A stretch of 33,883 nucleotides of DNA from a virus: positions 1 to 33,883 of IMG/VR virus record IMGVR_UViG_3300036719_003046, one strand, 5' to 3'. The notes beneath the pieces are model-generated. The model saw nothing but the letters and a program-made list of their open reading frames with translations, was not told the origin of the DNA and did not search any database. Positions 2,505 through 30,579 of the stretch are shown piece by piece. Each line of letters starts with the position of its first letter. The first letter of the stretch is position 1. The position numbers and the translations under genes are program-made.

Positions 2505-2762
2505 TTATTTTTTGGGTGTTTGGGAAGATGTGCTATCAAGAAGTGCCGAGGCTTGAATATCTTTCTGAAGAGAATCTACTGACTGAATGATAAATACTAC
2601 CTGATTGTGTGGAAGTGCAGATTGATTCACCAAATTTTTAACAGCGTTTAGATTCTGCCAATGGTAATTGATTTGCTCTTCCTTGAACTTTACAACGATG
2701 AACTTTTCTGCTGCAAAGGAGACAAGTGTAACGGCCAAGAGAATAACTAATAGTTTTTTCAT
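2505..2762 (-). CDS. Small exported or membrane-anchored protein, first gene of lysis cassette
   Basis: This 85-aa protein starts with MKK and a hydrophobic stretch at about residues 4-19 (LLVILLAVTLVSFAAE), either a cleavable signal (after SFA) or an uncleaved anchor, followed by a helical region and a Ser/Thr-rich tail. Unlike the two exported proteins upstream it does not leave Gln at +1, which slightly favours an anchor. It follows the longest intergenic space of the window (134 nt), which holds a TAnnTTTG box and a palindrome, so it probably opens the lysis transcript. No family recognised; it could be an i-spanin-like or regulatory lysis protein. Confidence 0.6.
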   Translation of the reverse strand: MKKLLVILLAVTLVSFAAEKFIVVKFKEEQINYHWQNLNAVKNLVNQSALPHNQVVFIIQSVDSLQKDIQASALLDSTSSQTPKK

Positions 2763-2896: not shown

Positions 2897-3292
2897 CTAT
2901 TTGTTATTCTTTTTTATGACTACAAATTTATAGTAATTAATCATAAAATTATCTATGATTTCATCGCTTGTGCCCCAGTTTTTGATGATTTCTTTAGGGA
3001 TATATACTGAGGTTTGGTAGATGCCTCTGCCCTTTCTGTCAAAGAGGTTTACATAAGCTCCAGCCCCTTGTGAGGTGTCTCGGCTAATGTTCTGCACATT
3101 CCAGATAAACTGATAGGCAGTGTCCTTGGTTAAGGCATTGATGAGAATAGGCTGGATTAGGATAGCATTTTTTACTGGCATTAGTGTATCTACTGTGGGG
3201 GAAGATGTGCCAGCAATAGTGCTTGAGATAGTGCCTTGTGAATAGGATGTCAGGGAAGTGGCAATAGCCAGAATCAATAGTAAGTGTTTCAT
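2897..3292 (-). CDS. Small exported protein paired with the fibre gene
   Basis: This 131-aa protein has a clear Sec signal peptide (MKHLLLILAIATSLTSYS) with a predicted cleavage before QG. Gln at +1 follows the Bacteroidetes Q-rule for signal peptidase I substrates, so the mature protein should be periplasmic or surface exposed. The mature part is about 113 residues, beta-rich with a basic C-terminus; no cysteines, enzyme motif or known domain is apparent. Its ATG overlaps the stop of the 1836-aa fibre-like gene (ATGA), and both products carry the same type of signal, so they probably act together outside the cytoplasm. A chaperone or surface partner of the fibre is possible but unproven. Confidence 0.75.
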   Translation of the reverse strand: MKHLLLILAIATSLTSYSQGTISSTIAGTSSPTVDTLMPVKNAILIQPILINALTKDTAYQFIWNVQNISRDTSQGAGAYVNLFDRKGRGIYQTSVYIPKEIIKNWGTSDEIIDNFMINYYKFVVIKKNNK

Positions 3293-6200
3293 TTTATTTT
3301 AGATTTAATTAATTCTTTTAGTTGAGCTATTTCGTTTTCTAAATCCTTAATCTTCTGGTTATCGGATTTTATTTTTATAGTAGGTTGCTCAAATTTCGCC
3401 TTATAACCAATAGAAGGACCACTCATTGCCTCTGGCTCAGGCTCAGGTGGATATCCTGTCAATAAGTAGTATGTAGTGCCATCAATATCTACTAAAACTG
3501 ATAGCCCATCTGCTCCACCAACTGAAACCCCTCCTTGTTTCAAATTCCACGCATTACCAGCAGTGGTTTTGATTGTGCCGGTTTGTACTGAGTTACCTGC
3601 TTTATCAACTTTATACTGACTTGTTCCCCCTACCTGCAAATCCATAAGGTTAGAGGTAGAACCCGAAGCTGTGTTGGTAATGTTTAACTTAATAGCCGTA
3701 GGATTTCCCGATGTATTCCAAGTTCCAGCTAAATCAATTAAAGATTGTGCATTTGAACCAGTTAAAGAATATCCAGTTGCTGCAAATGAAGCAGTATTTG
3801 CTACACCGCCTGTAATGTAGTTTGTTGCTGTTACATTACTTGAGAATGTAGCTGCTCCATCACCTCTTACAAAAAATTTTAAATCATTAAAATCATTTGC
3901 ATAAGCTGCTATTAAATTGAAAGCACTACTTGATGTTCTTGTTGAACCTATTGCTAATACATTATTATCAAAACTTGCATTTGTAGCAGATACTACTACC
4001 GAAGCAGTACTTTGTGCAGATTGTCTTAATTCGTGATATGCACCTGTTGAATTTAAATAACTACCATCGTTACTTGCTTTTAAATAACCCCCACTTGTTA
4101 TTCTCATTCGCTCGGTGTTACTTGTACCGAAAACCATTGGGTCACTTCCTATTGCAACTAACGCTAATGAACTTGCCCAAGATGAAGCACTTGCATTTGC
4201 CCAAGCTATTAACCCTTTATCTGTTAAAGATGAGTTTTTAAGTAATATACCAGAATAAGCATTTGCACTTGTGTTTGCCATAGTCATTAAAACATCTCCA
4301 GCAGGAGAACTTTGTCTAACATCTAATATGGTTGCTGGGCTTTGTGTTCCTATTCCTACGTTGCCCCCATTGGGTTGTAATGCTAAAATGCCATCATTGC
4401 TACTATTAACCGTCATTGCTTGTATATAAGCTATTCTTGAACTTGAAGTAGAATTTCCCTTTAATCCAAATTCAAAACCAAATGGATTAGAAGCCCAAGC
4501 CTCGTTTGTTGTAATATAGAATGGGTATTCCTGTGTAGTACTTGTCTTTGATGAAGGAGCTACTAATCTGGCTACTGCATTTGTACTTGTTCCCTGAACA
4601 ACCTCTAATTTTGCTCCTGAACCTGTGCCGGGGTTAGTTGTACCTATACCTACGTTGCCACCACTTGTTATTCTCATTCGCTCGGTATTGTTCGTACCCA
4701 ATATCAATGCCGTATTTGACCTATTGTACAAATAAGCAGTTGCGTCTGTTGAATGGCCTACAAAAAACTCACCACTTCCCGAAACACCATTACCCCAATA
4801 TGTTGTGGCTGCACCTACTCCTGAACCCGCTGCAATAGTTAATTTATCGTTAGGGGAAGTTGTACCTATACCTACGTTGCCGCCATTAGGGTTTAAGGCT
4901 AAAGGGTAGTAAACTCCTAAATTACCTACATCAGCAACCTGTATCCATTGAGCATAAGAACCGCTATAACTTCCCCCGAAATACATACCTATACCTCTAT
5001 TATTAGTAAGGTTTAACATTGCATTTACTGGGGTTGTTCCAGATGATGCAGGAGCATTTCCAGCAGTTATATCTCCTATATATGAATGTAATTTACCTGT
5101 CGGGGAAGTTGTACCTATACCTACGTTGCCACCTGATGTGATTGTCATTCTAATTGCTGGATTACCGCTGTTTGCCGTATAAAATTGCAAATATCCACTA
5201 TTAGCATCTGCCCCTCTAACACCATCAATTATTACTAATCTTTGTGCAGTATTTGTAGTTGCAGTATTTGTAAATGATAATCTTCCCAATATCTCATCAG
5301 CAGTTGTATTTGTTCCAGCTAATGATAAAACCGCTCTACCAGTTGTGCCTTGATAAATAGAAATACCTTTTGCACCATCAATCCAAGAAGAAGGCGAAGT
5401 GTTCCCTACACCAAGATTTCCCGAAGCATCCAAGGTCATAGCTTGTGTAAAGGTTATGGCATTACCTGCCGTGCCACTTGCTGCTTGATACCAAATGTGT
5501 TGCTCATCTGCTATTCTATATCTTCCCGCAGCACCATTATTTAAATATATATCTGTTCCGCTTGAATTTACATAGTTGTTGTTTTCAAGATAAGTATTAG
5601 CAGAATTTGTAAATGACCTTACTGCACCATAACCTAATTGAAAAGCGCGTGTTGTAGATAACCACGCACTTGGTGTTACTCCTAAGCCTAAGTTGCCAGC
5701 ATTTGTTAATGTTAATATATCATATTGGTCTGCATTATCTGTAATTCTTAAACTATTACTATTTGCCCCTAACTTAATATATGAATTTGAAGCACCTGAA
5801 GAATATCTACCAATTTCTAATTTTGCATTATTATCATCTTTAATTGATATACCACCAAAAACAGATAGTTTACCATAAGTTCCAGATGGACTTCCCCCAA
5901 CACCTATATTGCTACTACTTTCCTGCATTACACTATTTCCTATTGCACTTGAACTTGTAAACTTAGGTATGTAGTTTGTAGTGCCACTTCCCGTAACAGT
6001 ACCAGCCGCAGCCCTAATAGCAGCAGCCGAATCAGCTAAAACTGTTCTGGTTACATATCCAAGTAAGTTAGTAGAGGTTAAAGAGTCCTTTCTGCGCAAG
6101 TAGTAAGCCGACAAGGTAGCCGAGTCAACAAGTAACGTACCCGACCCAGTAATAGCCCCACCTGATAAGCCATAACCACTACCCACAGAGGTTACTGTAC

Positions 6201-8799
6201 CCCCAGAAGAGGGAGAGCTATTTGTAATGGTAAAGCTGGGATAAGTGCCAGAGATACTAATGCCAGTACCCGAATTTAACACTACTGTCTGATCGGGAGC
6301 GGTATTGGTAACAGTCATTGACCCCGACCCAGTAACAGGACTTCCCGATACACTTATGCCAGTACCAGCCGTTAAGCCCACTGATGTAACCGTACCTACT
6401 GAAAAAGTCCTATTGGCTGACAAATCTTGTAAAGTGCCATTGATAGTAATGGTTCGTGATTGCGGCACATAGGTTGCAGAGGCTACATTAGACCTTAAAT
6501 AAGGAGACAGCATTGAAGCTGTGTCGCTGATGTTCAATTTTAAGTTAATACGATTACTAAGGCTGGCTGTGTCAATCTTACGCAAATAAGGACTGAGCAT
6601 ACTACTTGTATCTGAAATGTTTAGTTTTGTAGCTAGTCCACTTGTTAAATTAGCTTGAACACTATCAATTCCCTTTTGTCTCCATGCCCTTGTAGCAATT
6701 AACAATGTATCTATCGCTAATGTTCCGCTTGTAGTAATCGTTCCCCCGGTTATACCTGTGCTATTATTTGTAGCCACAGAGGTAACAGTTCCCCCAGCAT
6801 CTATTAACGTATCTGCAATAGATATTGTACCTGAAGCATTAATTCTTAAAGCCTTTGTTCCGGGTGCAGAGGGAAGTGCTGACATTCGCACCCCTCTTTG
6901 TAAATGTGTTCCATTAAGAACGGTCAATGAAGAATCTGGTGTGGTAAGTACACCGAGACCAGTAGCACTAATTCTTGCATATTCTGCAGTAGCATTTGGG
7001 TTAGCAATTATTACACCTCCTGAGCCAGCAGATATTTGTCTCAAAGAAAACCCACCTACAAAGTTTGTGGTAGCAACAAAATGATCATCAGCTATCCATT
7101 TTCTTGCGTAACCATCATTGCTCGATGTTAAGTCTAATTTATACGCAGGGGAAGTTGTTCCTATGCCAATCAAACCAGCATTTTGGAAAATTTGAGAAGT
7201 ATCAACTGTACTGGTACCCGTCCAGCGAGTCATATAGTTAGCAATACCAGTTCCTCCAACCTTTGTATTGGCTAAAGCCGCTACCGAGTCTATGCCCTTC
7301 TGTCTCCAAGCTCTTGTACTTATTAAAGCCGTATCAATAGCTAATGTTCCCGAAGTAGTGATTGTGCCGCCTGTGATACCTGTTCCGTCGTTGGTGGCTA
7401 CTGAGGTAACCGTTCCCCCTGCATCGATAAGAGTATCGGCGTATGATATTGTTCCAGAAGCGTCTATGCGAAGGGCTTTTGTTCCGGGTGCTTGGGGAAG
7501 TCCTGACGCACGAATTCCCCGACCAAATAAAGCTCCATTGACAACAGTAAGGTTAGAGTCTGGAGTAGATGTTCCTAGACCCATATTGCCGTTCCCTAAC
7601 CAATAATAAGGGGTCGTTTGAACGCCATTATCCCAAAGCCTAAATTCAGCTCTGCTCGTATAGGTTGCTGCCGCTGGGTTGGTACCCCTAATGATAAACC
7701 TGTTTAATTTTCTATTATTGGCATCATCCCTTGTTCCAAAATCCATCCCCGTTCCCATATTGGCTTGGGGAGTCCCCGTAGTCAATGAGCTTTCTATCAA
7801 TAGCGGTAACTGCGCTCCCGTATTGTTAGTAGTCTTTTCGTTAAAGATGGCCACGTAAGAGCTTAGCCCGTTATTTTCAGCATAGATAGCGGCATTGCTA
7901 TCTGATACGTTTGAGGCTGAATTATAGTTAATTTTAAGGGCAAACCCTCCTGTATCTACAATAGCCAATCGCCCGTTAGGGGTGGTAGTGCCGAGGCCAA
8001 TGTTTTGACCATCTTGAAATAGCTGCGAGGTGTCGATTGTATTTGTGCCGCTAAATTTAGGTACATAGCCAGCAATTCCCGAAACATTATTATTTATTAA
8101 AGCCGCTACGCTGTCTATTCCTTTTTGTCTCCAGAGGCGAGTAGAAATAAGTGCGGTGTCTATGGCAAGAGTTCCCGTAGACGTAATAGTACCACCAGTA
8201 ATTCCCGTAGCATTATTAGTAGCTATTGAGGTTACTGTTCCTGCGGGGGAAGATGAGACAACGCTATCTACATACCCTTTATCAACTAACGTAAATTGTT
8301 TGTAATCTGAGTGATAGTTTCCAGCGTAAGATATTTTTTTTGAAATAGAAGCACTATCCGTTTTCAGCAATAAATTTAAGTCCCCTGTTGTAAATCGAAT
8401 ACTATCCGCACTAACCACAAACTTGTCAAGACCCGTAAAGGTGAGAGGGTAGCCGCCACCTGTTAAGGTTCTAACCCCCGTTAGCGTACCATCAATTGAA
8501 TATATGTTATTCCCCGATCCCGTATTAATAGGTATCCAAGCAGTAGCAGTCTGGTTGCGAAGCCAAAGCTTAATACCGCCGCCATTGGTGGCAATCTGCG
8601 CTCCGGGGTAGCTTTTAATGCGTTGGTTGTTTGCCGCGGTCGTGTCGACAAATACAATGTTGACAAAGCGGGATTGGGTGGCTCCCTTGGAAACTACAAT
8701 AGTGCTGTCACTTCCCAATACTTGGGTGATGGGGTAACCCTGTGAAAATGAAGCAGTTACACAAATTAAGGCTAAAACTAAGGCAAATATTTTCTTCAT
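3289..8799 (-). CDS. Giant fibre-like protein with Sec signal peptide
   Basis: This 1836-aa protein is a repetitive, Gly/Ser/Thr-rich, beta-structured fibre. It has two ~100-aa repeats plus a partial third (TVTSVATN...GITGGTIT...RQKGIDSV; residues about 185-235, 460-510 and 670-715) and about ten GIGTTSPxxKL units from residue ~265 to ~1490, a pattern common in phage fibres and Bacteroidota surface proteins. The last 25 residues form a coiled coil (trimer seed); no S74 autoprotease/chaperone domain is visible. Oddly, it begins with a textbook signal peptide (MKKIFALVLALICVTASFS, then QG), which cytoplasmically assembled tail fibres lack. Either it is exported to the host surface, or a host secreted gene was recruited. 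It overlaps endonuclease 1 and the 131-aa exported gene by 4 nt each. Confidence 0.8.
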   Translation of the reverse strand: MKKIFALVLALICVTASFSQGYPITQVLGSDSTIVVSKGATQSRFVNIVFVDTTAANNQRIKSYPGAQIATNGGGIKLWLRNQTATAWIPINTGSGNNIYSIDGTLTGVRTLTGGGYPLTFTGLDKFVVSADSIRFTTGDLNLLLKTDSASISKKISYAGNYHSDYKQFTLVDKGYVDSVVSSSPAGTVTSIATNNATGITGGTITSTGTLAIDTALISTRLWRQKGIDSVAALINNNVSGIAGYVPKFSGTNTIDTSQLFQDGQNIGLGTTTPNGRLAIVDTGGFALKINYNSASNVSDSNAAIYAENNGLSSYVAIFNEKTTNNTGAQLPLLIESSLTTGTPQANMGTGMDFGTRDDANNRKLNRFIIRGTNPAAATYTSRAEFRLWDNGVQTTPYYWLGNGNMGLGTSTPDSNLTVVNGALFGRGIRASGLPQAPGTKALRIDASGTISYADTLIDAGGTVTSVATNDGTGITGGTITTSGTLAIDTALISTRAWRQKGIDSVAALANTKVGGTGIANYMTRWTGTSTVDTSQIFQNAGLIGIGTTSPAYKLDLTSSNDGYARKWIADDHFVATTNFVGGFSLRQISAGSGGVIIANPNATAEYARISATGLGVLTTPDSSLTVLNGTHLQRGVRMSALPSAPGTKALRINASGTISIADTLIDAGGTVTSVATNNSTGITGGTITTSGTLAIDTLLIATRAWRQKGIDSVQANLTSGLATKLNISDTSSMLSPYLRKIDTASLSNRINLKLNISDTASMLSPYLRSNVASATYVPQSRTITINGTLQDLSANRTFSVGTVTSVGLTAGTGISVSGSPVTGSGSMTVTNTAPDQTVVLNSGTGISISGTYPSFTITNSSPSSGGTVTSVGSGYGLSGGAITGSGTLLVDSATLSAYYLRRKDSLTSTNLLGYVTRTVLADSAAAIRAAAGTVTGSGTTNYIPKFTSSSAIGNSVMQESSSNIGVGGSPSGTYGKLSVFGGISIKDDNNAKLEIGRYSSGASNSYIKLGANSNSLRITDNADQYDILTLTNAGNLGLGVTPSAWLSTTRAFQLGYGAVRSFTNSANTYLENNNYVNSSGTDIYLNNGAAGRYRIADEQHIWYQAASGTAGNAITFTQAMTLDASGNLGVGNTSPSSWIDGAKGISIYQGTTGRAVLSLAGTNTTADEILGRLSFTNTATTNTAQRLVIIDGVRGADANSGYLQFYTANSGNPAIRMTITSGGNVGIGTTSPTGKLHSYIGDITAGNAPASSGTTPVNAMLNLTNNRGIGMYFGGSYSGSYAQWIQVADVGNLGVYYPLALNPNGGNVGIGTTSPNDKLTIAAGSGVGAATTYWGNGVSGSGEFFVGHSTDATAYLYNRSNTALILGTNNTERMRITSGGNVGIGTTNPGTGSGAKLEVVQGTSTNAVARLVAPSSKTSTTQEYPFYITTNEAWASNPFGFEFGLKGNSTSSSRIAYIQAMTVNSSNDGILALQPNGGNVGIGTQSPATILDVRQSSPAGDVLMTMANTSANAYSGILLKNSSLTDKGLIAWANASASSWASSLALVAIGSDPMVFGTSNTERMRITSGGYLKASNDGSYLNSTGAYHELRQSAQSTASVVVSATNASFDNNVLAIGSTRTSSSAFNLIAAYANDFNDLKFFVRGDGAATFSSNVTATNYITGGVANTASFAATGYSLTGSNAQSLIDLAGTWNTSGNPTAIKLNITNTASGSTSNLMDLQVGGTSQYKVDKAGNSVQTGTIKTTAGNAWNLKQGGVSVGGADGLSVLVDIDGTTYYLLTGYPPEPEPEAMSGPSIGYKAKFEQPTIKIKSDNQKIKDLENEIAQLKELIKSKIK
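6657..6960 (-). repeat. Repeat copy 3 within fibre gene
   Basis: This segment encodes SLTVLNG...PGTKALRINASGTIS...TVTSVATN...RQKGIDSV and is a diverged DNA copy of 7271-7584. The similarity continues across about 300 nt, with most changes at third codon positions. It is part of the internal repeat architecture of the fibre and a possible site of unequal recombination. Confidence 0.65.
7271..7584 (-). repeat. Repeat copy 2 within fibre gene
   Basis: This is the second copy of the ~100-aa fibre repeat (NLTVVNG...PGTKALRIDASGTIS...TVTSVATN...RQKGIDSV). It is nearest to copy 3 at 6657-6960; its gene-distal part also matches the shorter copy at 8098-8240. Confidence 0.65.
8098..8240 (-). repeat. 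Repeat copy 1 (partial) within fibre gene
   Basis: This is a shorter copy of the repeat, covering only TVTSIATN...GITGGTIT...LISTRLWRQKGIDSVAAL. It lacks the preceding PGTKALRI part found in copies 2 and 3. It lies nearest to the N-terminal, signal-bearing end of the fibre protein. Confidence 0.6.
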
Positions 8800-9551
8800 T
8801 GTTCTTTATATTTAAAAATATATTTTCTTCTACTATCAATTTTTTTCAATAATCCTCTTGCTGAATGATTTATCACATTTCTTGCTATTCCTGTAATTTT
8901 TGAAGCTTGTCTAACCCCTTCAAATTCGGCTACTAAATTCCCCTCTAAATCAAATTGTAAAATAGCCTTCTTTTCTTTCTTTGCAAACAATCTATCTTTT
9001 TGCTCTTGAGTCCATTTAGTTCCTAAATTATACCGCTTGCCAATTTTTGATAAGCCTATCTGTCTTTTTCTTTCTTCAGATAATTTCTTGCCTTTGTTTG
9101 GGTGTGGCATCCCGTTTTTGTAGGCTTGTATTCTTGATTCAGAAAGCTTTCTCTTAGTCTCCTCGGATAAAGGCCTTCCTCTTAAAGCATATTTTGGCCC
9201 ATTTTTACCAACAGGTCCAGTTTCTCCCCCATCTGTACAATTTAAGCCTTTATCATATTTATATTCACTTGTAGACCATTTTTTATTGTAACTCATATAG
9301 GATCTAATCCAAAACATTTCCTTACCATCACAATAATTAACATCTCCATCAAATTCATCAATAACTTCAAACTTATGATTTTCTATTCCGTATTTTTTTA
9401 TGGAAGAATGTATGAGAGTTTGATCTTTCCTAACCCTTGAGTAGGATTGCTTTCTTTTTTTAAAATTAGTAGTTTTACCGATATAGATTCTATCTGTCGG
9501 GCTTGTTATCCTGTAGATATACCAATGTCTTATTTCTTGATTTTCAATCAT
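8796..9551 (-). CDS. GIY-YIG homing endonuclease 1 (NUMOD-type)
   Basis: This 251-aa protein has an N-terminal GIY-YIG nuclease fold: YIYRI (11-15), RIYIGKT (21-27), Arg33 and Glu78 before WIRSY, matching the catalytic Tyr/Arg/Glu set. Residues about 120-175 contain GRPLSEETKRKLSES and GKKLSEERKRQIGLSKIG, two NUMOD3-like DNA-binding elements, and 195-245 a NUMOD1/IENR-like helix-turn-helix (ASKITGIARNVINHSARG). It is a free-standing homing endonuclease expected to cut a related phage lacking the gene. Its base use is AT-richer than its neighbours and it has no copy of the dispersed motif. Both ends form ATGA overlaps with the flanking tail genes, so the element fits the operon without breaking coupling. 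Confidence 0.93.
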   Translation of the reverse strand: MIENQEIRHWYIYRITSPTDRIYIGKTTNFKKRKQSYSRVRKDQTLIHSSIKKYGIENHKFEVIDEFDGDVNYCDGKEMFWIRSYMSYNKKWSTSEYKYDKGLNCTDGGETGPVGKNGPKYALRGRPLSEETKRKLSESRIQAYKNGMPHPNKGKKLSEERKRQIGLSKIGKRYNLGTKWTQEQKDRLFAKKEKKAILQFDLEGNLVAEFEGVRQASKITGIARNVINHSARGLLKKIDSRRKYIFKYKEQ

Positions 9552-10069
9552 ATAGGATATATCTGGAATATTTCTCCTCCGACCGCCGCAGGGTGTATAG
9601 TAAACAAACCTAAGTTCTTATTCCAAGAGAAGTAGCTATCCCCATTTAGGTTAAGCGTAGACTGGGGTATTCCATTTCTTACAAAGAGAACATTAAAGCC
9701 TATGAAGGCGGTAAGGGTTGCCGATGTAGCCCCTGTAGGTACGATAGAGGATGCACTAACCTCAAAGATGTAGGGGTTAGGAATCTGCGTGGGGTTAACA
9801 GGGGTGATGGTACCGCCTGTTCCTGAGATTTGCTGGGCTTGCAGGTTGTAACCACGACAAAGGGCGTAGAGGTAGTTAGATGTTTCTGTTAGGGTTGAAT
9901 CGGAAGGGTCTAGGTTGTACCAGTATTCTACCGCTTTTCTTTCGTTATAAAGTATTTGGGGTGTCTCGGGAACAACTCGCTGTCCGAACAGAGAACCTTT
10001 TTCAACATCAAGCGTAGCTAAATATTGGCTGATTTTCGCAACGTCTAAAATTTGTGCCACCGTCAACAT
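9548..10069 (-). CDS. Tail-associated structural protein, 173 aa
   Basis: This 173-aa protein has a helical N-terminal half (AQILDVAKISQYLATLD to YLYALCRGYNLQAQQI) and, after a Gly/Thr/Pro linker near residue 105, a beta-rich C-terminal domain (VSASSIVPTGATSATLTAFIG onward). A helical anchor plus a small beta domain fits an adaptor between tail stump and fibre. It lies between the ejection proteins and the fibre-like gene, separated from the latter only by endonuclease 1. No family recognised. The spacer before it (36 nt) carries a dispersed motif copy. Confidence 0.6.
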   Translation of the reverse strand: MLTVAQILDVAKISQYLATLDVEKGSLFGQRVVPETPQILYNERKAVEYWYNLDPSDSTLTETSNYLYALCRGYNLQAQQISGTGGTITPVNPTQIPNPYIFEVSASSIVPTGATSATLTAFIGFNVLFVRNGIPQSTLNLNGDSYFSWNKNLGLFTIHPAAVGGEIFQIYPI

Positions 10070-10090
10070 AAATATATATTTTGTGTCAGG

Positions 10091-10103
10091 ACTTCCCCTA
10101 ACA
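10091..10103 (+). repeat. Intergenic copy of dispersed motif WCTTCCCNNRRCA
   Basis: ACTTCCCCTAACA occupies a third of the 36-nt spacer between the 175-aa and 173-aa genes, about 22 nt upstream of the latter's ATG. No protein constrains it. Confidence 0.7.
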
Positions 10104-10105
10104 TC

Positions 10106-10633
10106 TTAGAAAAATAAATTTTGATTGCTTACCATTGCTGTTGCCAAATCATAGCAAATCTGTGCTGACGTAATATCATACCCAAGTGTTATACTTTGGT
10201 TTCCGCTATCTATAAGGCAGCGAAGCTTACTCTTGTTGCTAAAATAAGTTGTATCTTGTAGGATGTAGGATGGCTGGGAAATCGCGGCTTGCCCTTGCGT
10301 TAAAGAATAATAAAATGTTTCATTATACAGTGTGAAGCCTGCGAGGGAAGTCTTGGTATAGAGCGTCACTCCGCCAGCATCAACCCAGTTAACGGTGATT
10401 TGAACAGCGGTGTCGGCTGATAGGCAATCGATAGATATTGAGCTTTGTGCTAAAGGCCATACGGTATAATTAGTGGTAGTTCCATCGGCTACCAGATATT
10501 CCCCGGCATAATTAACTAAAAAAACCCTACGGCTTACTATAGCCACATCTGACCCCGTAGAGGCATCTGTTATAATCACATTAGAGGGTAAACCCGCTTG
10601 TTGTGACGTTGTAAAATTAGGAGTTAGCGGCAT
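10106..10633 (-). CDS. Tail or fibre-associated structural protein, 175 aa
   Basis: This 175-aa protein is beta-rich throughout, with many Ser/Thr and no charged low-complexity part, no signal and no transmembrane helix. It starts MPLTPNFTTSQQAGLPSNVI and has one Cys pair-like set (Cys94, Cys139, Cys160) that need not form disulfides. A compact beta sandwich between ejection and fibre genes suggests a fibre adaptor or decoration protein. I do not recognise a family. A TAnnTTTG box lies 25 nt upstream of the start, so it may open the tail-fibre transcript. Confidence 0.6.
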   Translation of the reverse strand: MPLTPNFTTSQQAGLPSNVIITDASTGSDVAIVSRRVFLVNYAGEYLVADGTTTNYTVWPLAQSSISIDCLSADTAVQITVNWVDAGGVTLYTKTSLAGFTLYNETFYYSLTQGQAAISQPSYILQDTTYFSNKSKLRCLIDSGNQSITLGYDITSAQICYDLATAMVSNQNLFF

Positions 10634-10657
10634 CTTTTATTGTATTAAATTGTTTAT

Positions 10658-10665
10658 CAAAGTTA
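10658..10665 (-). promoter_or_regulatory. Candidate -7 promoter box before fibre genes
   Basis: On the minus strand TAACTTTG matches TAnnTTTG and lies 24 nt upstream of the ATG at 10633, in a 38-nt spacer after the giant ejection gene. No clear TTG is visible at -33. The position at a module boundary supports it; the short match weakens it. Confidence 0.35.
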
Positions 10666-10671
10666 CTAAAA

Positions 10672-13600
10672 TTACTTGAGCTTTTTCTTCACCTTTTCCT
10701 TAGTCTCTTCTTGTTCTTTTTCTTGTATGGGGAATTGGCGAAAGAGTTTTATATATCGTTTTTCTAAAATTTCTTGAGCATCTTTTTTGGCCTGATCAAT
10801 AGCCATTTTATCGTATTCAGCCCGCTTGGTACCTGATTTTTCTTTCTTAACAATTGGTGCTATCTTGGCTAATTCAATCTTTGCTCGTTCTTTTACTATG
10901 TTTTGAAATTCCTCCTTTTGGGCATCGGTCAATTTTACTACCCTTTTAACCTCTTTCTTATTAATTTTTTCCTTAAAAATAATTTGGTCTTGCACTTGTT
11001 TCATATCAACCTTTCGGATATTGGCTCCTATTATTGCCAACATATTGAACATGGCTGTTACGGCTATAGGGTCTTCTTTATAAAGCTCATTGGCGTCCTG
11101 AATCCACATTGGCACTACCAAGTTTTGCAATATTTCATCGTCATTTTCGTAGTTCGGATTTTTATCTAAATAATCCCTTATTGCTCCCGTTCCGGGAGAA
11201 GCTTTACCTAACAAGAATTGGGTGGTTAAATCTAATTTGGTATCTATTTTTTTGCCGTATCTTTCTCCAAATTTGGTTGTAATTCCGTATTGGTCTACGA
11301 AATCTTGCCCAAAAAGACGAGACATAAAAACAATAGTTGATTTTATACCTCCCAAAAAACTAATACGTTTATCTCCAATCTTAAATGCCAAGAAATTAGG
11401 GCTATCCGAGTTCCAAAAATCTTCATAATCCTCTTCGTCGCCCCCATAGGTATCTATTGCGGCTTTTACTAATGCGTGAGTAACAAGAACCGAGGCTGAA
11501 AATTTTGCAAAATCTATTAATGCCCTTTTCCTTACTGGGGCTGGCATATAACCATAGTATAAAAAAGCAAGAGGCGAATATAGCTTAAGCTCAGAAGCTA
11601 CCTTTCTTGGGGCAAACATAATAACACTCAACCACTTAGATGAAGCTTCAAGAGGCCCCATATTAGCTCTTCCCGTAGCAGTATTAACAAAGTCGGCAGC
11701 GGATTTGTAAACTTCTGGGTTTGAGTCTGGGGTGTAGCCCATATTTTTTAGAGCTGCCATTTCTGCCTCAAAGGAAGAGATTCGTATATAGTTCATATAC
11801 CCATCAAAAGCTCGTTGAGAAGCCTTTAGGGGGTTAATGCGTTTAATAAACTCAGCCGAAGGTTTATGGCCAAGGGTTATAACGCTGGCAATCAAATCAT
11901 AAATGGTATTTGCCCATTGAACAACGAAAATTTGCTCTTTAGCCGAAAGCGTTCCATCTACATCGCTGATAGCCAACCCAGAGTTTCTGGCTACGGAATA
12001 GTTATACGTTCCCTTGTAGCGTTGCATAAAACGCTCCATTCTGGTTGGTGAAGCAAATTGTCTAAGCCCTTCAGCAAATGCCTTGGCAGACATTACAGGA
12101 TTAGTGAAGACCCTACGGGTTCCCTGAACAAAGGCGGCACTAAGATCGAGTCCAGCTACCAAGGCTCTAGAGATACCAGAAAATATCTCTAATGCAATAT
12201 CCTCAATACGCTGACCTAAGGTTCTATTTTTTAACTCAGCTTTCTTTTTTTCTTCCTCGAACTTGTCCTGTAGGGCTTGTTTTTTGCCAAGCAAGATTTC
12301 AAGTTCGGCGTCGGCTTTAACTAAAGGCTTGGGGCGCGACGCATAATCCTTTTCTTTTAGTCTTCTTTGTAGTTCCTCTATCCTCTTTTTTGCAGATTCC
12401 TTTGCTTGTGAAAGAACTTGGGCATCGGTTTTTAAATCTCTAGCAAGGCTATTGATTTGTTTTTTTAAATTCTTTTCTGCCTCAGTTATCTTCGATGGTG
12501 TTGGTTTTTTGAAATACTTGAGTGCAAATTCCGTCTTACTCATTGATTTCAAGTCCTCAAGCTCAGATATCAACCTGCCTAATCTCTTAGCGGCTGCTAG
12601 TTGTTGTCTTACTTCGTCTTGGCTTGGGTTAACTGTTTTCCCATACTGGGTGATGGCATCTCTTACTTGTCTTTTTGTAAGCCCGGGAAGTTGTGACTCA
12701 AGCTCCTTAAAGGCGGCATCCGTTAAACCATCAATCGTATTTATTCCTTTTCTTACAAGGTCTCTGAGGAATTTTTCTGGTATAGTTATTGTGCCGTCTT
12801 CGTTAATAGTAGGTGTTTCGGGAACCTCTTTTTCTGTTTTTACTCCTTCGGCTTTAAATCCGTCTAATAAATCTTTTCTAAACTTATCTTCGTTATTGAA
12901 GGGCTTACCCTTTAATGCATCTTTTATTTTATCAATACCAAGTTCAATGGCTTTTTCAATAGCCACTCCAGCTTTGAGAGCCTTTTTAATGGTGGTAATA
13001 CCCATATCAATGATTGCAACAGGTATACCAATACTTGCATCGTATGTTCTACTTCTAAGTCTTTTTTGTATTCTTTCAAGGGCGGCGATAGCCTGATCTG
13101 CACGGCTTTTTCTTTTTGCAGGTAGCTGCTCGTAAATTTTATTGATTTCCTCCTGTACTCCTTTTTGAACCTTGGCATCTATTTCCTCATCCGTTAGCGT
13201 TCTCGCGTCTTCCCTTTTTACATCTTCAATAATGTTTTCAACAGCCACTTGACCCTCTTGGTCAACTTTCCTTTCTTCCGCTTCTTTAATTTGTTTTTTA
13301 AGTTCTTGGATTTCGGCATCCATTTTTTCAAATTGCTCTAATACCTCTGGAGATATAACACCTCCATTCGCCTTCTTGTATTGGGCAATTTGCTGTTGTA
13401 GGGAATAAGTTCTGTCAAGCATCCATCGGCGAAGCCTAAAGGACATTGATTGCTGCTGAGCGGTAATGACTGCTGCGATTTCAAAATTCCGCTGCTCTAC
13501 TTGCAGGTTTTTTAATTCTACCCCTTTTGTGCCTATTTCTTGCCCAGAAGCTTCTAGCTGTTCAATTTCGGCGGTTAAGTCCTCGATTTTAGTATCGAGG

Positions 13601-16600
13601 TCTGCCTTGTAAGTAATTAAGGCTACCACTTCAGCGGGGCTTAATACACCTCGCCCTTCATCAATAATCTTATCTATCAATAGTTTTGGCTCGACTTCCC
13701 CGGACTCAATAATCTGTTTCCCAGCCATTAAAAGCTGCTTATCTCCTGTCCTATCAAGGTCTACATTCTCAAGAACTTCCTTTGAAACAAGACCCTTTTT
13801 TATCCCTGAGAGGCGCCTTGGCTCCCCTTCTTCTGTGGGCGTAGGTTTCGGGCCACCCTCTGTTGGAGGAGCGCCCCTTCCAGCCTCTCCAGCAGGTTTT
13901 GCTGCTGTTGGTCGGACAGGTTTTGGAACTTCTTTTTTAACCTCGGGTTTGACTCCACCCTCTGGGAGAGCTTCTGGCGTAATTGGTTCTTCATATATTT
14001 CACTTTCAAATTGTTGTTCAGCTTCCATTTCCTCAAACCATTTGACTAAGTCTGTCTCGGGAAGTGTTTCCACTTCTTCCCCTAACACCCTGTCAATATC
14101 CCCCTCTGCCACTCTTTCTAATTCTTTAAAAAATTCATCAATAGGGAGGCCTATTAAGTTTTGACCATCCCTAACTTCTATAACCCCGCTTTCAGCCATT
14201 GCCTCAAGATCATTAAGGATAAGGTTAGCCCCCTTGCTTGGAATACCATTTTCTAAGTCTTTAAGGGCGTTAGCAATTTGCTTGTTATTCATCTTTTTGC
14301 CGTCCGCCCCGACAATTACATTGGGCATAAAGGATTGAAAATCCCACCCATACTTTTGAGAAAGGCCTTGTATTTTATTATACAAATTCCTCAGCTTTTC
14401 GCTTCTTTTTTCAAGCGGCACAAACTTGCTATCAATAGCCATATTACTATTGCTCTTATCTACCGCTCTTGCTTTTTTAACATAAATCCTACCTTCTCTA
14501 TCAACCTTTGTTTCAAAGCCTAATCTCTTGGCCTCAATTAAAAGCTCGTTTCTTTTTTTAAGACTCTCTATTGTCTTTAATCCAAGACGGCCTCTTTTTT
14601 GCTGGTTGAATTTATATAGTTCCCCTACTAGCTTATTGACCTCTAATTGTCTTCCCTCTGGAGGAGCGTAGGTCTTTTCTCTTTTAGCTATTTCTTTTTT
14701 CGCAGCTTCAACTTTACCTTCTTGGGCAGCCGCAATCCTTTCGACTGGCGATTCCACTCCTCTACGTTCACCCCCTTCTTCTCCAATTCTTTCTTGTTCA
14801 GGTTGAAGTACGCCCTCTGGGCTTGGCTCTGGTATGGCATATTCTTCTGTTTTAATTTCTTCTTTTGTTATGGGTGCTGCGGGAACTTGTGGTGCCGCCT
14901 CTTCCCCGACAATCTGTTCCTTATATTTACCGGCCTTAATATTTTCAACTACTTTATCAAGTAAAACAGCCTCTGGAACTCCTTGAGGGTAAAGACTGTT
15001 TAATGCTTTTGCAACAAAAACCGCTTCTTCAGGAGTGTTAAACTCTAAATTAGCTATCACTCCTATGTCACCAGTTCCCTGAACATTTAATAAAGTTTTG
15101 TCTTTATAATCATTGACCCTATATCTATCATTTTCAAAATACACATTAGACCCTGTGCCTAATTGTCTAATAGGCTCAACTTTGGGTGCTGCGGGAACTT
15201 GTGGTGCAGCTTCAGGTGCTTCCACTACTTCTCCGGCTCTTACAGCTTCTTCTTTAACAGGCGCGACTTCCCCCAACTTGGCTATACGCTCTTGCGTACT
15301 ACCAATCTTAGTTTTAATATTTTGTACTTGCTCATCAGTTTCAACATCTTCAATACCTTGTTCTGTTAATTCTTTTCTACGCTCCGCTAGTTGTCTTCTA
15401 TAAGTTGATAAATATCTATTTAGTGTTTCTTCTGTCTGGGGAACTTGTGGCGTTTCGATAACCCTATCTACAATAGCTTCTTGCTCCGCTATCTGCGCAT
15501 CTATCTTTTTAGCAAATACGGGGTCTAATCCTTTCTTCTGCTGCTCTAATTCTTTTTTCTTTTGCAGAGCCTCTATTACTTCGGCGTTCTTTTTATATTG
15601 TTCAGGAACAACTGATCTTACTTCTTGGACTTTTGCGTACTCGTTCTTTATCTCATCGGCTTGTGCGTCGGTAAGTTCTCCAGTTGCCTCAGAGACGTCA
15701 AGCATATCCTGCAAATCCTCTGGCTTAATATCTAATTGAGCAACTTCTTTTATTGTAGGCTTACCCTGTTTTTTACTTTCAATAGCCGTCCCCACAATGA
15801 TATCAGGTGCGCCGCCGCCTGTTTCTCCAATCATTTCAGCAAAAATTGCTGTAGGATTAAACTTCTGCCCTGAAACTTTCTGTGCCGTTGCTTCCCCCGC
15901 ACCCGCAAGACCAGCCTGAATACCTACTTCTGCCGCACCTCTTCCTACCTTTTGCAACATTGTTTTTGCAGGCTTACCTAATAATTTACCACCCATACCT
16001 GCGGAGAACATATCAAATAGGGCAATAGGGACAGCTCTTTTATTGGCAAATTCTCTGGCCTTTCTTAATGTTTCTGGGTTGTCAAATCCTTTTTGTAAAG
16101 ATTTTTCATCTGTAATATCAACTCCAGCTTCTCTAAAAGAATCTAAAATAGAGGAAGCCATTTCAAGATTGTATCCAGCAACACCCATCCCTGCCATAAA
16201 CCCATACCCAGCACCAGCAACAGTACCGCCTCCGGGTATAACGCTACCAGCTAAAGCACCAGTTGTGGCACCAGCTACCGCTCTTGAAGCACCGTGTCTT
16301 ACTTGCGCAGAAAGGCTTTCTGCAATTAATTGAGACCCTATTTCAAAGGGATTTTTAATAAATTCTTTCGCCGCTGTAGAAAAATCTGGCGCACTATTAA
16401 ATCTTTCGTATGCTCCAGAAGAAGGAATAGCTTGCTGCTCCCTTGTTAATCTTGCAATTTCTTTCAAGTCTTCTCGGCTTGGCATTTGCCCTAAAGCCAT
16501 CATATCTGCAATAGCACCCTGTCTTTTACCTCTTTCTATAGCATTTAAGAAAGCATCAATTTCACCTACTTCTCTTTCTGTCTCGGGAAGTTTTGGAGCA

Positions 16601-17052
16601 AGTGCTTTTTCGACCGCTCTTTCTTCTGCAATTACTTTTGGTGCTGCGGGAAGTTGTACTTGAGTACTTACTGGTGCAGCTTTTTGTTCTTTTGCAATTT
16701 TTCTTGCAAGTAGCGTATCTTCCCCGACAACCTTGGGTTCTTTAATTACTTCAGCGGGTTGCCTTTTTGCTGGCTTCAGTTCTCCAAAACCCTTACCTGA
16801 ATCCGATGGGGGAGCGGAAGTACCAGCTTCGCCACCATCTTCTGAAACCTTCTCTGAAATTTTTTTTTTTAAACCCGTAGCATTTTCAAAATCATCATAA
16901 TCAATAAACAAGCCAGATGTTTGTTTCTCTTTTGAAACAACATTAAATACCTCTTTTGGACTTTTATTTAACTGTTGCCTAAAATCATTTTCATCCAAGA
17001 ACAATTTGGTTGATTTTAGGGAATTGTATAAGTCTTTAATTGGATCTGGCAT
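10672..17052 (-). CDS. Giant internal virion (ejection) protein with LPD38-like domain
   Basis: This 2126-aa protein begins with a small motif (FLDENDFRQQLNKSPKEVF; FIDYDDFENATGL) seen in large internal proteins of Bacteroidota phages. Residues ~250-420 are Gly/Ala-rich and hydrophobic (AGATTGALAGSVIPGGGTVA), suited to membrane insertion. Residues ~500-800 hold repeated Ala/Pro linkers (PQVPAAPKV), followed by long acidic and coiled-coil stretches (near 1220-1265 and 1567-1605). Residues ~1635-1990 resemble the LPD38 region of phage polyvalent proteins (FVNTATGRANMGPLE; IMFAPRKVAS). No lysozyme or transglycosylase motif was found. Size and place after two other internal proteins suggest it is injected with the DNA to build a trans-envelope channel. 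LPD38 assignment is from memory of the motif. Confidence 0.7.
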   Translation of the reverse strand: MPDPIKDLYNSLKSTKLFLDENDFRQQLNKSPKEVFNVVSKEKQTSGLFIDYDDFENATGLKKKISEKVSEDGGEAGTSAPPSDSGKGFGELKPAKRQPAEVIKEPKVVGEDTLLARKIAKEQKAAPVSTQVQLPAAPKVIAEERAVEKALAPKLPETEREVGEIDAFLNAIERGKRQGAIADMMALGQMPSREDLKEIARLTREQQAIPSSGAYERFNSAPDFSTAAKEFIKNPFEIGSQLIAESLSAQVRHGASRAVAGATTGALAGSVIPGGGTVAGAGYGFMAGMGVAGYNLEMASSILDSFREAGVDITDEKSLQKGFDNPETLRKAREFANKRAVPIALFDMFSAGMGGKLLGKPAKTMLQKVGRGAAEVGIQAGLAGAGEATAQKVSGQKFNPTAIFAEMIGETGGGAPDIIVGTAIESKKQGKPTIKEVAQLDIKPEDLQDMLDVSEATGELTDAQADEIKNEYAKVQEVRSVVPEQYKKNAEVIEALQKKKELEQQKKGLDPVFAKKIDAQIAEQEAIVDRVIETPQVPQTEETLNRYLSTYRRQLAERRKELTEQGIEDVETDEQVQNIKTKIGSTQERIAKLGEVAPVKEEAVRAGEVVEAPEAAPQVPAAPKVEPIRQLGTGSNVYFENDRYRVNDYKDKTLLNVQGTGDIGVIANLEFNTPEEAVFVAKALNSLYPQGVPEAVLLDKVVENIKAGKYKEQIVGEEAAPQVPAAPITKEEIKTEEYAIPEPSPEGVLQPEQERIGEEGGERRGVESPVERIAAAQEGKVEAAKKEIAKREKTYAPPEGRQLEVNKLVGELYKFNQQKRGRLGLKTIESLKKRNELLIEAKRLGFETKVDREGRIYVKKARAVDKSNSNMAIDSKFVPLEKRSEKLRNLYNKIQGLSQKYGWDFQSFMPNVIVGADGKKMNNKQIANALKDLENGIPSKGANLILNDLEAMAESGVIEVRDGQNLIGLPIDEFFKELERVAEGDIDRVLGEEVETLPETDLVKWFEEMEAEQQFESEIYEEPITPEALPEGGVKPEVKKEVPKPVRPTAAKPAGEAGRGAPPTEGGPKPTPTEEGEPRRLSGIKKGLVSKEVLENVDLDRTGDKQLLMAGKQIIESGEVEPKLLIDKIIDEGRGVLSPAEVVALITYKADLDTKIEDLTAEIEQLEASGQEIGTKGVELKNLQVEQRNFEIAAVITAQQQSMSFRLRRWMLDRTYSLQQQIAQYKKANGGVISPEVLEQFEKMDAEIQELKKQIKEAEERKVDQEGQVAVENIIEDVKREDARTLTDEEIDAKVQKGVQEEINKIYEQLPAKRKSRADQAIAALERIQKRLRSRTYDASIGIPVAIIDMGITTIKKALKAGVAIEKAIELGIDKIKDALKGKPFNNEDKFRKDLLDGFKAEGVKTEKEVPETPTINEDGTITIPEKFLRDLVRKGINTIDGLTDAAFKELESQLPGLTKRQVRDAITQYGKTVNPSQDEVRQQLAAAKRLGRLISELEDLKSMSKTEFALKYFKKPTPSKITEAEKNLKKQINSLARDLKTDAQVLSQAKESAKKRIEELQRRLKEKDYASRPKPLVKADAELEILLGKKQALQDKFEEEKKKAELKNRTLGQRIEDIALEIFSGISRALVAGLDLSAAFVQGTRRVFTNPVMSAKAFAEGLRQFASPTRMERFMQRYKGTYNYSVARNSGLAISDVDGTLSAKEQIFVVQWANTIYDLIASVITLGHKPSAEFIKRINPLKASQRAFDGYMNYIRISSFEAEMAALKNMGYTPDSNPEVYKSAADFVNTATGRANMGPLEASSKWLSVIMFAPRKVASELKLYSPLAFLYYGYMPAPVRKRALIDFAKFSASVLVTHALVKAAIDTYGGDEEDYEDFWNSDSPNFLAFKIGDKRISFLGGIKSTIVFMSRLFGQDFVDQYGITTKFGERYGKKIDTKLDLTTQFLLGKASPGTGAIRDYLDKNPNYENDDEILQNLVVPMWIQDANELYKEDPIAVTAMFNMLAIIGANIRKVDMKQVQDQIIFKEKINKKEVKRVVKLTDAQKEEFQNIVKERAKIELAKIAPIVKKEKSGTKRAEYDKMAIDQAKKDAQEILEKRYIKLFRQFPIQEKEQEETKEKVKKKLK

Positions 17053-28165: not shown

Positions 28166-29071
28166 TTAAGCTGCACGCCCCGCAATATGCGGGCGGTTTT
28201 GATTTAGAGAATCTTTGTAATAAAATTGATGGCCAGTCCTTATGGGCTTGCCGTTGTTGTACATTGCTGCACGATTGATAGTGGTTTTTGGGATAAGGAA
28301 ATACTCGGATGCTTCTTGTGCTGAGGGATGCTCCCACATCTTCCCCGACACTACGGTAATAATTGCACGTTTTACGGTTTGCTGCTTTACCTCAACCTCT
28401 ATTTTTAAGGGGTAATTTTCTGTTTTATTTCTAAATACATAACCTTTTGCATGGGTACGTTTTCCCGAAACAGAATTGTAAATATCCCTTGAAGAGCATT
28501 TGGTAAATTTAGTCGCTTCCGCGTAAGATTCAAATTCTCTTAAAAAAATTCCTTTATTATCGTAAACTAAAACAGGTTTAATTTTTTGAAGTCTACTTTT
28601 TTGAATACCCCATTCCGGAACCTTAATTCCATTTTGTTTATTGTATTCAGAAACTTCTTTAGATTTTCTGGCCTTAAATTCTTCAGTATGATGTTTCCCG
28701 TAAAAAGGATTACCATTTCCAGTAAACCTTTTAGCTTGCTTTTCCCTTCTTTTAATATCGTGCATCCAAGAACCATTGTTTCCATCGCCACCTTTTGTCA
28801 TATTCAATCCTCTTGGATATTCATAACAATAGGTTTTATAAAAGGCAATCCAGTAAATTTCCCTTTCATCCAATAAGCAATCCTCAACCTTTTCAATCAC
28901 TTCTAAAATGTGAGCATCCCAACTATACTTTCTTAAGCTATTGTGCAGCTTAATCTCCTTTCTGTTCTTCTTTATATCACACTTATAGGAATTAATTCTC
29001 TTGCGCAAATTTTGCGTTTGACCTATATAAAGGCGGCCAGAAGGACTTGATATTTTATAGATTACTCCCAT
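28166..29071 (-). CDS. GIY-YIG homing endonuclease 2 (NUMOD-type)
   Basis: This 301-aa protein has the GIY-YIG core VIYKI (3-7), LYIGQT (14-19), Arg25 and Glu71 in DEREIYWI. Residues ~95-135 resemble NUMOD3 (GNGNPFYGKHHTEEFKARKS), and two NUMOD1/IENR-like segments follow, ~170-210 (FLREFESYAEATKFTKCSSR) and ~245-290 (HPSAQEASEYFLIPKTTINR). It is AT-rich relative to the capsid gene and lies just after it, a frequent site for homing endonucleases because capsid genes are conserved. A 10-bp GNRA hairpin separates it from the capsid gene. Expected activity is site-specific double-strand cutting of endonuclease-free relatives. Confidence 0.92.
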   Translation of the reverse strand: MGVIYKISSPSGRLYIGQTQNLRKRINSYKCDIKKNRKEIKLHNSLRKYSWDAHILEVIEKVEDCLLDEREIYWIAFYKTYCYEYPRGLNMTKGGDGNNGSWMHDIKRREKQAKRFTGNGNPFYGKHHTEEFKARKSKEVSEYNKQNGIKVPEWGIQKSRLQKIKPVLVYDNKGIFLREFESYAEATKFTKCSSRDIYNSVSGKRTHAKGYVFRNKTENYPLKIEVEVKQQTVKRAIITVVSGKMWEHPSAQEASEYFLIPKTTINRAAMYNNGKPIRTGHQFYYKDSLNQNRPHIAGRAA

Positions 29072-29142: not shown

Positions 29143-30579
29143 TTAAGAAGCTTGTACGATGACGAACTGGTTCGCGGCTGCAACTCTTGAGCCCCGATAG
29201 GTGATCATCTCCACGTTATCGTTCATCTGGCCAGTGGTTGGATTCTGAGAACCACCACCCCATTGCCAAACACGAATACCGTTACCAATAGTACCACCCT
29301 TAGGGGGTTGTTGGTACATGATTGTAATGTTCTTGTAGAGCTTGCTCGCGTCTTTAGCGTCGCGAGTTTCTCCTTGAGGACAGATCATTCCGAAGTTACG
29401 GAAGAAGTCTGTGTTAGGAGTTACTCCAGTCAAGAATTCGGTATTGAATGGACGATACTTCTTCACTTTGAAGTGGTAGCCATCGATTTGGATTGATTTA
29501 CAACCGTAGTTGATAGCGGCCTCTTCAGACTTTTCGTTGCTACCCCATACCCAAGCACCAGCAGGGTAAGCGGCGAACAATCCGTCAGAGAAGTTTTGGT
29601 TTTGGAAGATATCTTGCAACCAGAGGTTTTCAGATACGCAACCATTTACGTCCATGATACGAGTGATTTCGTGGATCTTGGCGATATCCAAGTTTCCGGG
29701 GGTGTAACCAACTGTTTCTCCGTCAGCGAGTACTTTGGGGATGATACCCTCAGAGCCTACTGAAGTAGAGGTGCTAAGACCTGAGTTGTTTACGATGTTA
29801 CCACGCATCAACTTCATCTCTACGTCGTCCTTGAAACGGATGTTTGACTTAACAAGTCCTTTCAGGGTGAAGAGGGAAGTCCCGGCTTGAGCTCCACCAG
29901 CAGGAACATCACCAGAGAAACCACCTGTGTAGTACACTTCGGTCATTTCGGCGAGGTCAGTTGCTGAGAAAGTCTCACGCATTTCGGTAATGGTGTTGGT
30001 GTACTTCTCGTCCAACTGAATCATAGGCTGATTAGTGTTAGAAGCCTCACCAGCATCCATGATACCACCGAAGATCAGGGTATCAGTAGCAAGGAAACTT
30101 CCGCTACCAGCAGAAGCCAGAGATTCGGTAGAGATCTTGGGACGAACGGTGAAGGTAAAGGCATTAGGAGTAGTTCCTGTGATTGCCAAGATTTGACCTT
30201 CTACGTTAGTTGAAGCTACACGAACAGTTTCACCGGGGCGCAGAGGAGCCTGAGTTCCGCTGTTGTAGTGATAACCAGCAGCCAGCGTAAGGGTGATAGT
30301 TGCACCAGCAGAAGCAGCTACGTTAGCAGCTGATTGGATACCAGTGATCAATTTACCACGGTTTTCAAACCAGAAGTAGTCACGGTTTTTAACCTCTTCC
30401 ATGCCAGCATAGGTAGAAAGCCACCAAGTGAAGTCTTCGCTACCATATTTTTCAACGTAGTTTTTGTAGTACTGTGGTGTCAATAGTTGAAGGTCGGACA
30501 CCAGTTGTCTCGTTACGCCACCCGCGATACTAATATTACCGGGTTGGAGTATATTCGAGGTAGGGATTCCAAGAGCCAT
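29143..30579 (-). CDS. Major capsid protein (probable)
   Basis: This 478-aa protein begins MALGIPTSNILQPGNISIAG and is rich in Gly/Ala/Thr with mixed alpha/beta character and no low-complexity parts, as expected for an HK97-fold capsid. Segments such as LRPGETVRVASTNVEGQILA (beta insertion, ~115-135), RGNIVNNSGLSTSTSVGSEG (~258-278) and the C-terminal NDNVEMITYRGSRVAAANQF fit a shell protein. It lies 33 nt downstream of a scaffold-like gene, and codon use looks the most even and GC-rich of the window, as in highly expressed genes. No prohead protease is seen. Identification rests on size, neighbours and general character; a structure prediction would settle it. Confidence 0.75.
   Translation of the reverse strand: MALGIPTSNILQPGNISIAGGVTRQLVSDLQLLTPQYYKNYVEKYGSEDFTWWLSTYAGMEEVKNRDYFWFENRGKLITGIQSAANVAASAGATITLTLAAGYHYNSGTQAPLRPGETVRVASTNVEGQILAITGTTPNAFTFTVRPKISTESLASAGSGSFLATDTLIFGGIMDAGEASNTNQPMIQLDEKYTNTITEMRETFSATDLAEMTEVYYTGGFSGDVPAGGAQAGTSLFTLKGLVKSNIRFKDDVEMKLMRGNIVNNSGLSTSTSVGSEGIIPKVLADGETVGYTPGNLDIAKIHEITRIMDVNGCVSENLWLQDIFQNQNFSDGLFAAYPAGAWVWGSNEKSEEAAINYGCKSIQIDGYHFKVKKYRPFNTEFLTGVTPNTDFFRNFGMICPQGETRDAKDASKLYKNITIMYQQPPKGGTIGNGIRVWQWGGGSQNPTTGQMNDNVEMITYRGSRVAAANQFVIVQAS

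Follow-up and report, generated by a model that had tools for sequence, protein, structure and literature searches.

A phage tail-fibre-like protein with a conserved, predicted Sec export signal

A tail-fibre-like gene from a Bacteroidota phage begins with a predicted Sec signal peptide, and this signal is kept at the same locus in related phages. The gene lies in a 33,883-base IMG/VR virus record (IMGVR_UViG_3300036719_003046, positions 1 to 33,883; hereafter the window) that is probably a genome fragment. Its product, of 1836 amino acids (aa), matches two PHROG tail fibre families (phrog_9942, E-value (E) 8e-11; phrog_18345, E 1e-5). An earlier note, made from the sequence alone, described a fibre-like phage protein with a signal obeying the Bacteroidetes Q-rule. 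This description holds. The coordinates in that note also stand. To these we add the strand, which it left out; this is the minus strand, the plus strand having many stops there. The note had further proposed that N-termini be compared across related phages. In all 22 related loci recovered (window included), the large fibre open reading frame (ORF) starts with a Q-rule signal peptide. We conclude that the signal peptide is, as judged from these sequences, genuine and no chance match. Export of the fibre out of the cytoplasm is thus predicted, and we consider it very probable. The gene and its signal are as follows.

3289..8799, minus strand: predicted exported tail-fibre-like protein, 1836 aa; ATG-initiated ORF with PHROG tail fibre matches
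8743..8799, minus strand: Q-rule Sec signal peptide MKKIFALVLALICVTASFS, predicted from sequence, with predicted cleavage before Q20; conserved in 22/22 related loci

The signal peptide and its conservation

The fibre starts with MKKIFALVLALICVTASFS, followed by QGYPITQ. Hence, it has a KK n-region, a hydrophobic core and an FS↓QG site (the arrow indicates predicted cleavage), so every part of the Q-rule (PMC5837995) is present. Note that, in the Bacteroidetes phylum, most substrates of Sec and signal peptidase I (SPI) expose Gln, which is converted to pyroglutamate (PMC10653852). Signals were scored using a rule-based test. This demands K/R, and no D/E, in the n-region, an 8-residue core with a mean Kyte-Doolittle value of at least 2.0, and a [small]-x-[AGSC]↓Q site. 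The window fibre passes the test, and so do 19/19 further fibre ORFs from the homologous locus (20/20 in all). Conversely, 0/136 internal Met 'starts' of window proteins, used as decoys, do so. When residues 2-60 are shuffled at constant composition, 0.6-2% of the shuffles pass. Hence, a single sequence is modest evidence and proof rests on conservation. The earlier note had also raised translation from a later in-frame codon. This is unlikely; among the first 150 fibre codons, ATG, GTG or TTG occur only at positions 1, 28 (TTG), 128 (GTG) and 144 (TTG), leaving TTG28 as the sole candidate before codon 128.

Relatives were gathered via the capsid gene, and then via two neighbouring genes encoding proteins of 175 and 173 aa. 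Most were not chosen by signal. For L002-L006, the query included the signal, so these five are not independent of it. A Q-rule signal peptide opens the large ORF behind the 175- and 173-aa neighbours in L047-L052, L111-L116, and L172. In L113 and L114, a fibre-like gene without signal, itself an insertion, and a small ORF come before the signal-bearing ORF; the fibre ORFs of L112 and L172 end at a contig edge. Further cases are L098, found by N-terminal alignment, and two stretches of phage DNA within Bacteroidia assemblies (L124/L128 and L125/L129). Identity of the N-terminal region falls to 22-27% among members keeping the signal, and codon differences within the signal are synonymous or conservative substitutions. 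Separately, L114 has a tandem pair of signal-peptide fibre-like genes (12803-16660) behind a 443-aa signal-less fibre-like gene. In L005, the fibre reading frame is broken into several ORFs (8001-13658), by assembly error or decay.

As controls, we used large ORFs from seven isolated Bacteroidota phages: phi38:1, elemo, phi14:2, crAss001, B124-14, P12002L, and P12024S (whole or part genomes). No fibre or virion protein in the stretches read has a Q-rule signal, in line with the view of the earlier note that a signal on a phage fibre is unusual. The sole control positive was the OmpA-domain protein gp002 of Cellulophaga phage phi14:2 (L120 283-1278), which has a Q-rule signal peptide. The nearest isolated phages also have tail fibre genes (phi38:1 gp85/gp87 and elemo gp33/gp34). 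However, these begin MARIK or similar, specify no signal peptide, and are sited upstream of terminase.

In the literature searched, no Bacteroidota phage is reported to export a tail fibre, though this is not proof of absence. Proteins with Q-rule signal peptides are already known in Porphyromonas gingivalis phages, where they are likewise adapted to Sec/SPI (PMC10367356). Those proteins are described there as being of unknown function, and not as fibres. What appears new here is a tail fibre, or receptor-binding protein, carrying an export signal. Signal-peptide fibre-like proteins also adjoin phage-type genes in two bacterial assemblies (L092 4979-9989 and L091 914-4213), but are unrelated by the N-terminal domain described below. 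Bacteroidota prophages may encode exported fibre-like proteins more widely.

Exchange of N-termini at the fibre locus

Two segments of the fibre are central to comparison between groups of phages.

8509..8742, minus strand: mature N-terminal domain, residues 20-97, with motif DTxxAN...GAxI...(W/Y)xR...W (alignment A3)
4636..5976, minus strand: body segment, residues 942-1388, homologous to sister-group fibres (match to L151 fibre)

Using the neighbour protein of the most divergent members as query, we reached a sister group, in which 28 contigs (L140-L158, L161-L167, L169, and L171) have a fibre start that can be read. The two genes upstream of the fibre, each of ~175 aa, are identical in kind in both groups. 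The sister fibres occupy the same place after these genes and have homologous body modules; window residues 942-1388 are 34% identical to residues 748-1205 of the L151 fibre (E 5e-32). The starts differ. Where the window has a signal peptide and DTxxAN domain, the sister fibres have no signal peptide and begin (M/V/L)AIQNLISGDLKLRNENGILVAVNGIV, with the consensus (M/V/L)AIQNLISGDLK.R..NG.L.A..GIV. In most, a collagen-like GTSGTSG stretch is next. Since the locus, upstream genes and body are shared, and the signal is not, comparison of the two groups indicates that this is a fibre gene with an exchanged N-terminus. One form is an ordinary start; the other is a signal peptide plus the ~75-aa domain. 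On a tree built from both neighbour proteins, signal state must change at least twice. A tree with the signal in one clade, consistent with a single origin, is not rejected by the approximately unbiased test (p-AU 0.10). Because several branches are long, the exact history of signal gain and loss is unsure.

A profile of the N-terminal domain, built from close relatives of the window, detects L098, L112, L114, L111, and L113 (E 8e-20 to 8e-3; best shuffled decoy 0.077), but not the domain of L052 or L116. Compared by sequence, the domain has no match in Pfam, PHROGs or PDB. The AlphaFold model of the mature domain has a mean predicted local distance difference test (pLDDT) score of 70, and ~87 over residues 30-70. 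Modelling residues 1-200 gave a pLDDT of 41 and was unusable. With the domain model, Foldseek returned nothing significant; the top PDB match, to the collagen XV trimerisation domain (E 0.96), is a hint only. The A3 domain profile matched 2/395 Bacteroidia genomes, each time behind the same two phage genes, and none of 5 further named genomes. We take the domain, from this distribution, to be phage-specific. Recruitment of a host secreted gene had been suggested in the earlier note. For the fibre N-terminus this is unsupported, because both Bacteroidia occurrences are phage DNA with the same neighbours, and we reject a host source for a domain found only in phage contexts.

Behind the constant N-terminal domain, the bodies are swapped, and this is the architecture of a receptor-binding protein. 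Bodies of the window and L003 fibres have VGIGT repeats and tail-fibre PHROG modules. L052 has an SGNH hydrolase (PF13472, E 9e-7, slightly under the curated cut-off), L116 has a pectin-lyase-like helix (phrog_32881, E 3e-22), and L113 probably has a C1q-like stretch, going by the names of matched records. Note that overlap with proteins secreted by Chryseobacterium, Tenacibaculum, and others is confined to generic body motifs; most of these proteins have signal peptides too. Secreted VGIGT-repeat proteins of Flavobacteriia share the Q-rule signal peptide, NIY..DGTLTGNRT, and VGIGT with the window fibre. However, they have neither the DTxxAN domain nor a phage neighbourhood.

Genomic setting of the fibre gene

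The capsid protein of the window (29143-30579) shares 23% identity with its counterpart in Cellulophaga phage phi38:1; with that of Flavobacterium elemo phages, it shares 26% across half its length. The virus probably belongs to a lineage of Bacteroidota tailed phages, with phi38:1 as a distant relation. On the minus strand, the capsid gene is followed by tail/neck genes, two large structural proteins, and the 175- and 173-aa proteins. A homing endonuclease gene then precedes the fibre, behind which lie the predicted exported protein of 131 aa, a small protein of 85 aa, and a protein resembling unimolecular spanins. The remaining features are listed in this order.

10106..10633, minus strand: conserved 175-aa neighbour, without signal peptide; served as anchor where searches were to be free of signal-peptide bias
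9548..10069, minus strand: conserved 173-aa neighbour, without signal peptide; precedes the fibre in signal-bearing and signal-less groups alike
8796..9551, minus strand: GIY-YIG/NUMOD homing endonuclease (Pfam GIY-YIG, NUMOD1, NUMOD3), an insertion that separates the 173-aa gene from the fibre
3292..3360, minus strand: predicted C-terminal coiled coil of the fibre (NQKIKDLENEIAQLKELIKSKIK), from sequence; L003 ends similarly
2897..3292, minus strand: 131-aa protein, predicted from sequence to be a second Q-rule exported protein (MKHLLLILAIATSLTSYS↓QG); overlaps the fibre stop
2505..2762, minus strand: 85-aa small protein with N-terminal signal/anchor; conserved in L003, L005, and L006
1515..2045, minus strand: unimolecular-spanin-like protein, identified from sequence, with a C-terminal membrane segment as well as lipobox LAIAC; the lysis region starts here, and relatives have a similar ORF

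The stop of the homing endonuclease overlaps the fibre ATG, and the endonuclease is missing from this spot in L002, a close relative. From reading of the sequence, a second GIY-YIG-like ORF (28166-29071) adjoins the capsid gene and a third is at 31871-32356. At the place of the 131-aa gene, a small ORF is also present in L006, L047, L048, and L049, where its product is likewise predicted to be exported; the ORF of L003 at this place encodes 114 aa and no signal.

Where the exported fibre might act

We tentatively favour a virion receptor-binding protein that is matured in the periplasm and docks on virions at lysis. The wider proposal, that the whole phage clade builds its receptor-binding fibre beyond the inner membrane, we put forward with more reserve. 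By this proposal, Sec export, a pyroglutamate cap, and periplasmic folding would precede joining of the cytoplasmic virion, which would occur only at lysis. Gene order, with the fibre between virion and lysis genes, suggests that the protein would be made late. Following the known Q-rule, Sec would export the fibre, SPI would cut before Q20, and glutaminyl cyclase would cap Q20 as pyroglutamate. The processed fibre would then stay, and fold, in the periplasm, because it has no lipobox, type IX secretion system (T9SS) C-terminal domain, or recognised outer-membrane anchor. At lysis, it would meet virions made in the cytoplasm and dock as their receptor-binding fibre, most likely via the conserved N-terminal domain. 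Unattached fibre might, in addition, cover receptors on debris. In other phages, in vitro complementation of extracts has established that fibres are able to join particles outside intact cells. One example is the tailspikes of P22. Another is T4, from work by Edgar and Wood that PMC9576892 mentions.

Other routes and signs were considered. In Pfam and NCBIfam, no T9SS C-terminal domain, lipoprotein, or outer-membrane family or anchor was recognised in the window fibre or its relatives, and we rejected T9SS cargo on the basis that the C-terminal domain was not matched. A lipoprotein, including an Llp-type protein, was rejected on the basis of Q at +1, no lipobox, and no Cys in the mature window protein. 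For the same lack of Cys, disulfide enrichment was discarded as a sign of periplasmic folding; Cys pairs occur in the N-terminal domain of only some relatives (L112-L114).

In genomes G029, G015, and G004, which are nearly or fully read, the signal-bearing protein is, apart from capsid, the one large fibre-like product. Hence, the virion has few other receptor-binding candidates. The earlier note had considered coating of the cell, exclusion of other phages, or a decoy, all of which are possible roles. A receptor-binding protein matured in the periplasm, an option absent from that note, accords no less well with the locus and gene content. Several points weigh against it. We know of no tailed phage with fibres passing through the periplasm. 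The relatives are all metagenomic contigs but for the two phage stretches inside Bacteroidia assemblies. Virion binding by the N-terminal domain is conjecture, and structure matches for this domain are not significant. 'Only fibre-like product' was judged by composition, and small structural proteins could be receptor-binding proteins. Finally, G012, G025, L113, and L114 carry other signal-less fibre-like proteins, usable by the virion there.

The last of these observations would suit a close rival, receptor blocking or surface coating. Here, the fibre would sit in the envelope of the infected cell, be freed at lysis, and occupy receptors there and on debris. This would exclude superinfecting phages and spare progeny, with the virion using a different receptor-binding protein. 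We regard such a mask as possible, though doubtful. The genuine Q-rule signal in every member of the signal group, bodies of receptor-binding type, and a position adjoining lysis genes and a second exported protein are all consistent with it. There is also precedent in Llp of T5 and BF23, a receptor-blocking lipoprotein likewise exported in the infected cell and encoded near the receptor-binding gene (PMC4728585). However, Llp is small and has another fold, while the window protein is a very large fibre without a lipobox. Furthermore, with no lipid, T9SS or outer-membrane anchor, arrival at the surface before lysis is unexplained. The gene also occupies the locus of a virion fibre, and G029, G015, and G004 show no other large fibre-like protein.

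Alternatively, the fibre could be neither virion part nor mask, but an exported adhesin, or polysaccharide-degrading enzyme, acting on the envelope or matrix to aid spread or release. The hydrolase- and lyase-like bodies of L052 and L116, and the body motifs held in common with secreted Flavobacteriia proteins, point this way. So do PblA and PblB of Streptococcus phage SM1, tail proteins that act at the host cell surface (PMC2920869), although in that Gram-positive system the surface is reached by holin/lysin permeabilisation rather than a Sec signal. We consider this role improbable, since hydrolase and lyase domains are just as typical of tailspikes, and the locus and signal-less sister fibres indicate a virion fibre. 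Marginally less probable is that the hydrophobic N-terminus remains uncleaved, as an anchor or docking helix within the virion, and the fibre is not exported. The segment is always N-terminal, where fibres attach to virions, and cleavage is predicted from sequence. Even so, every member keeps the KK n-region, the hydrophobic core and a precise [AGSC]↓Q site despite sequence change, and the invariant Q would be needless after an uncleaved anchor. A misassigned start, or chance resemblance, could appeal to TTG28 and to the shuffles that pass the rule. It is very improbable, given conservation in 22/22 loci, absence from the sister group, and no other ATG, GTG or TTG before codon 128.

In textbook tailed phages, fibres are assembled in the cytoplasm. 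With its conserved signal peptide, the window fibre would depart from this usual, though not strictly defining, trait of making and assembly in the cytoplasm with no export signal. Q-rule signals do reach a phage fibre gene, and the newly defined phage-specific N-terminal domain can be used to find more cases. With a Sec signal retained on the fibre of a whole clade, one may ask at what site, and at what stage, these phages complete their tails. The sister group, with the same gene but no signal, is a ready-made control. Side by side, the two clades make periplasmic fibre maturation, or receptor masking by exported receptor-binding proteins, directly testable.

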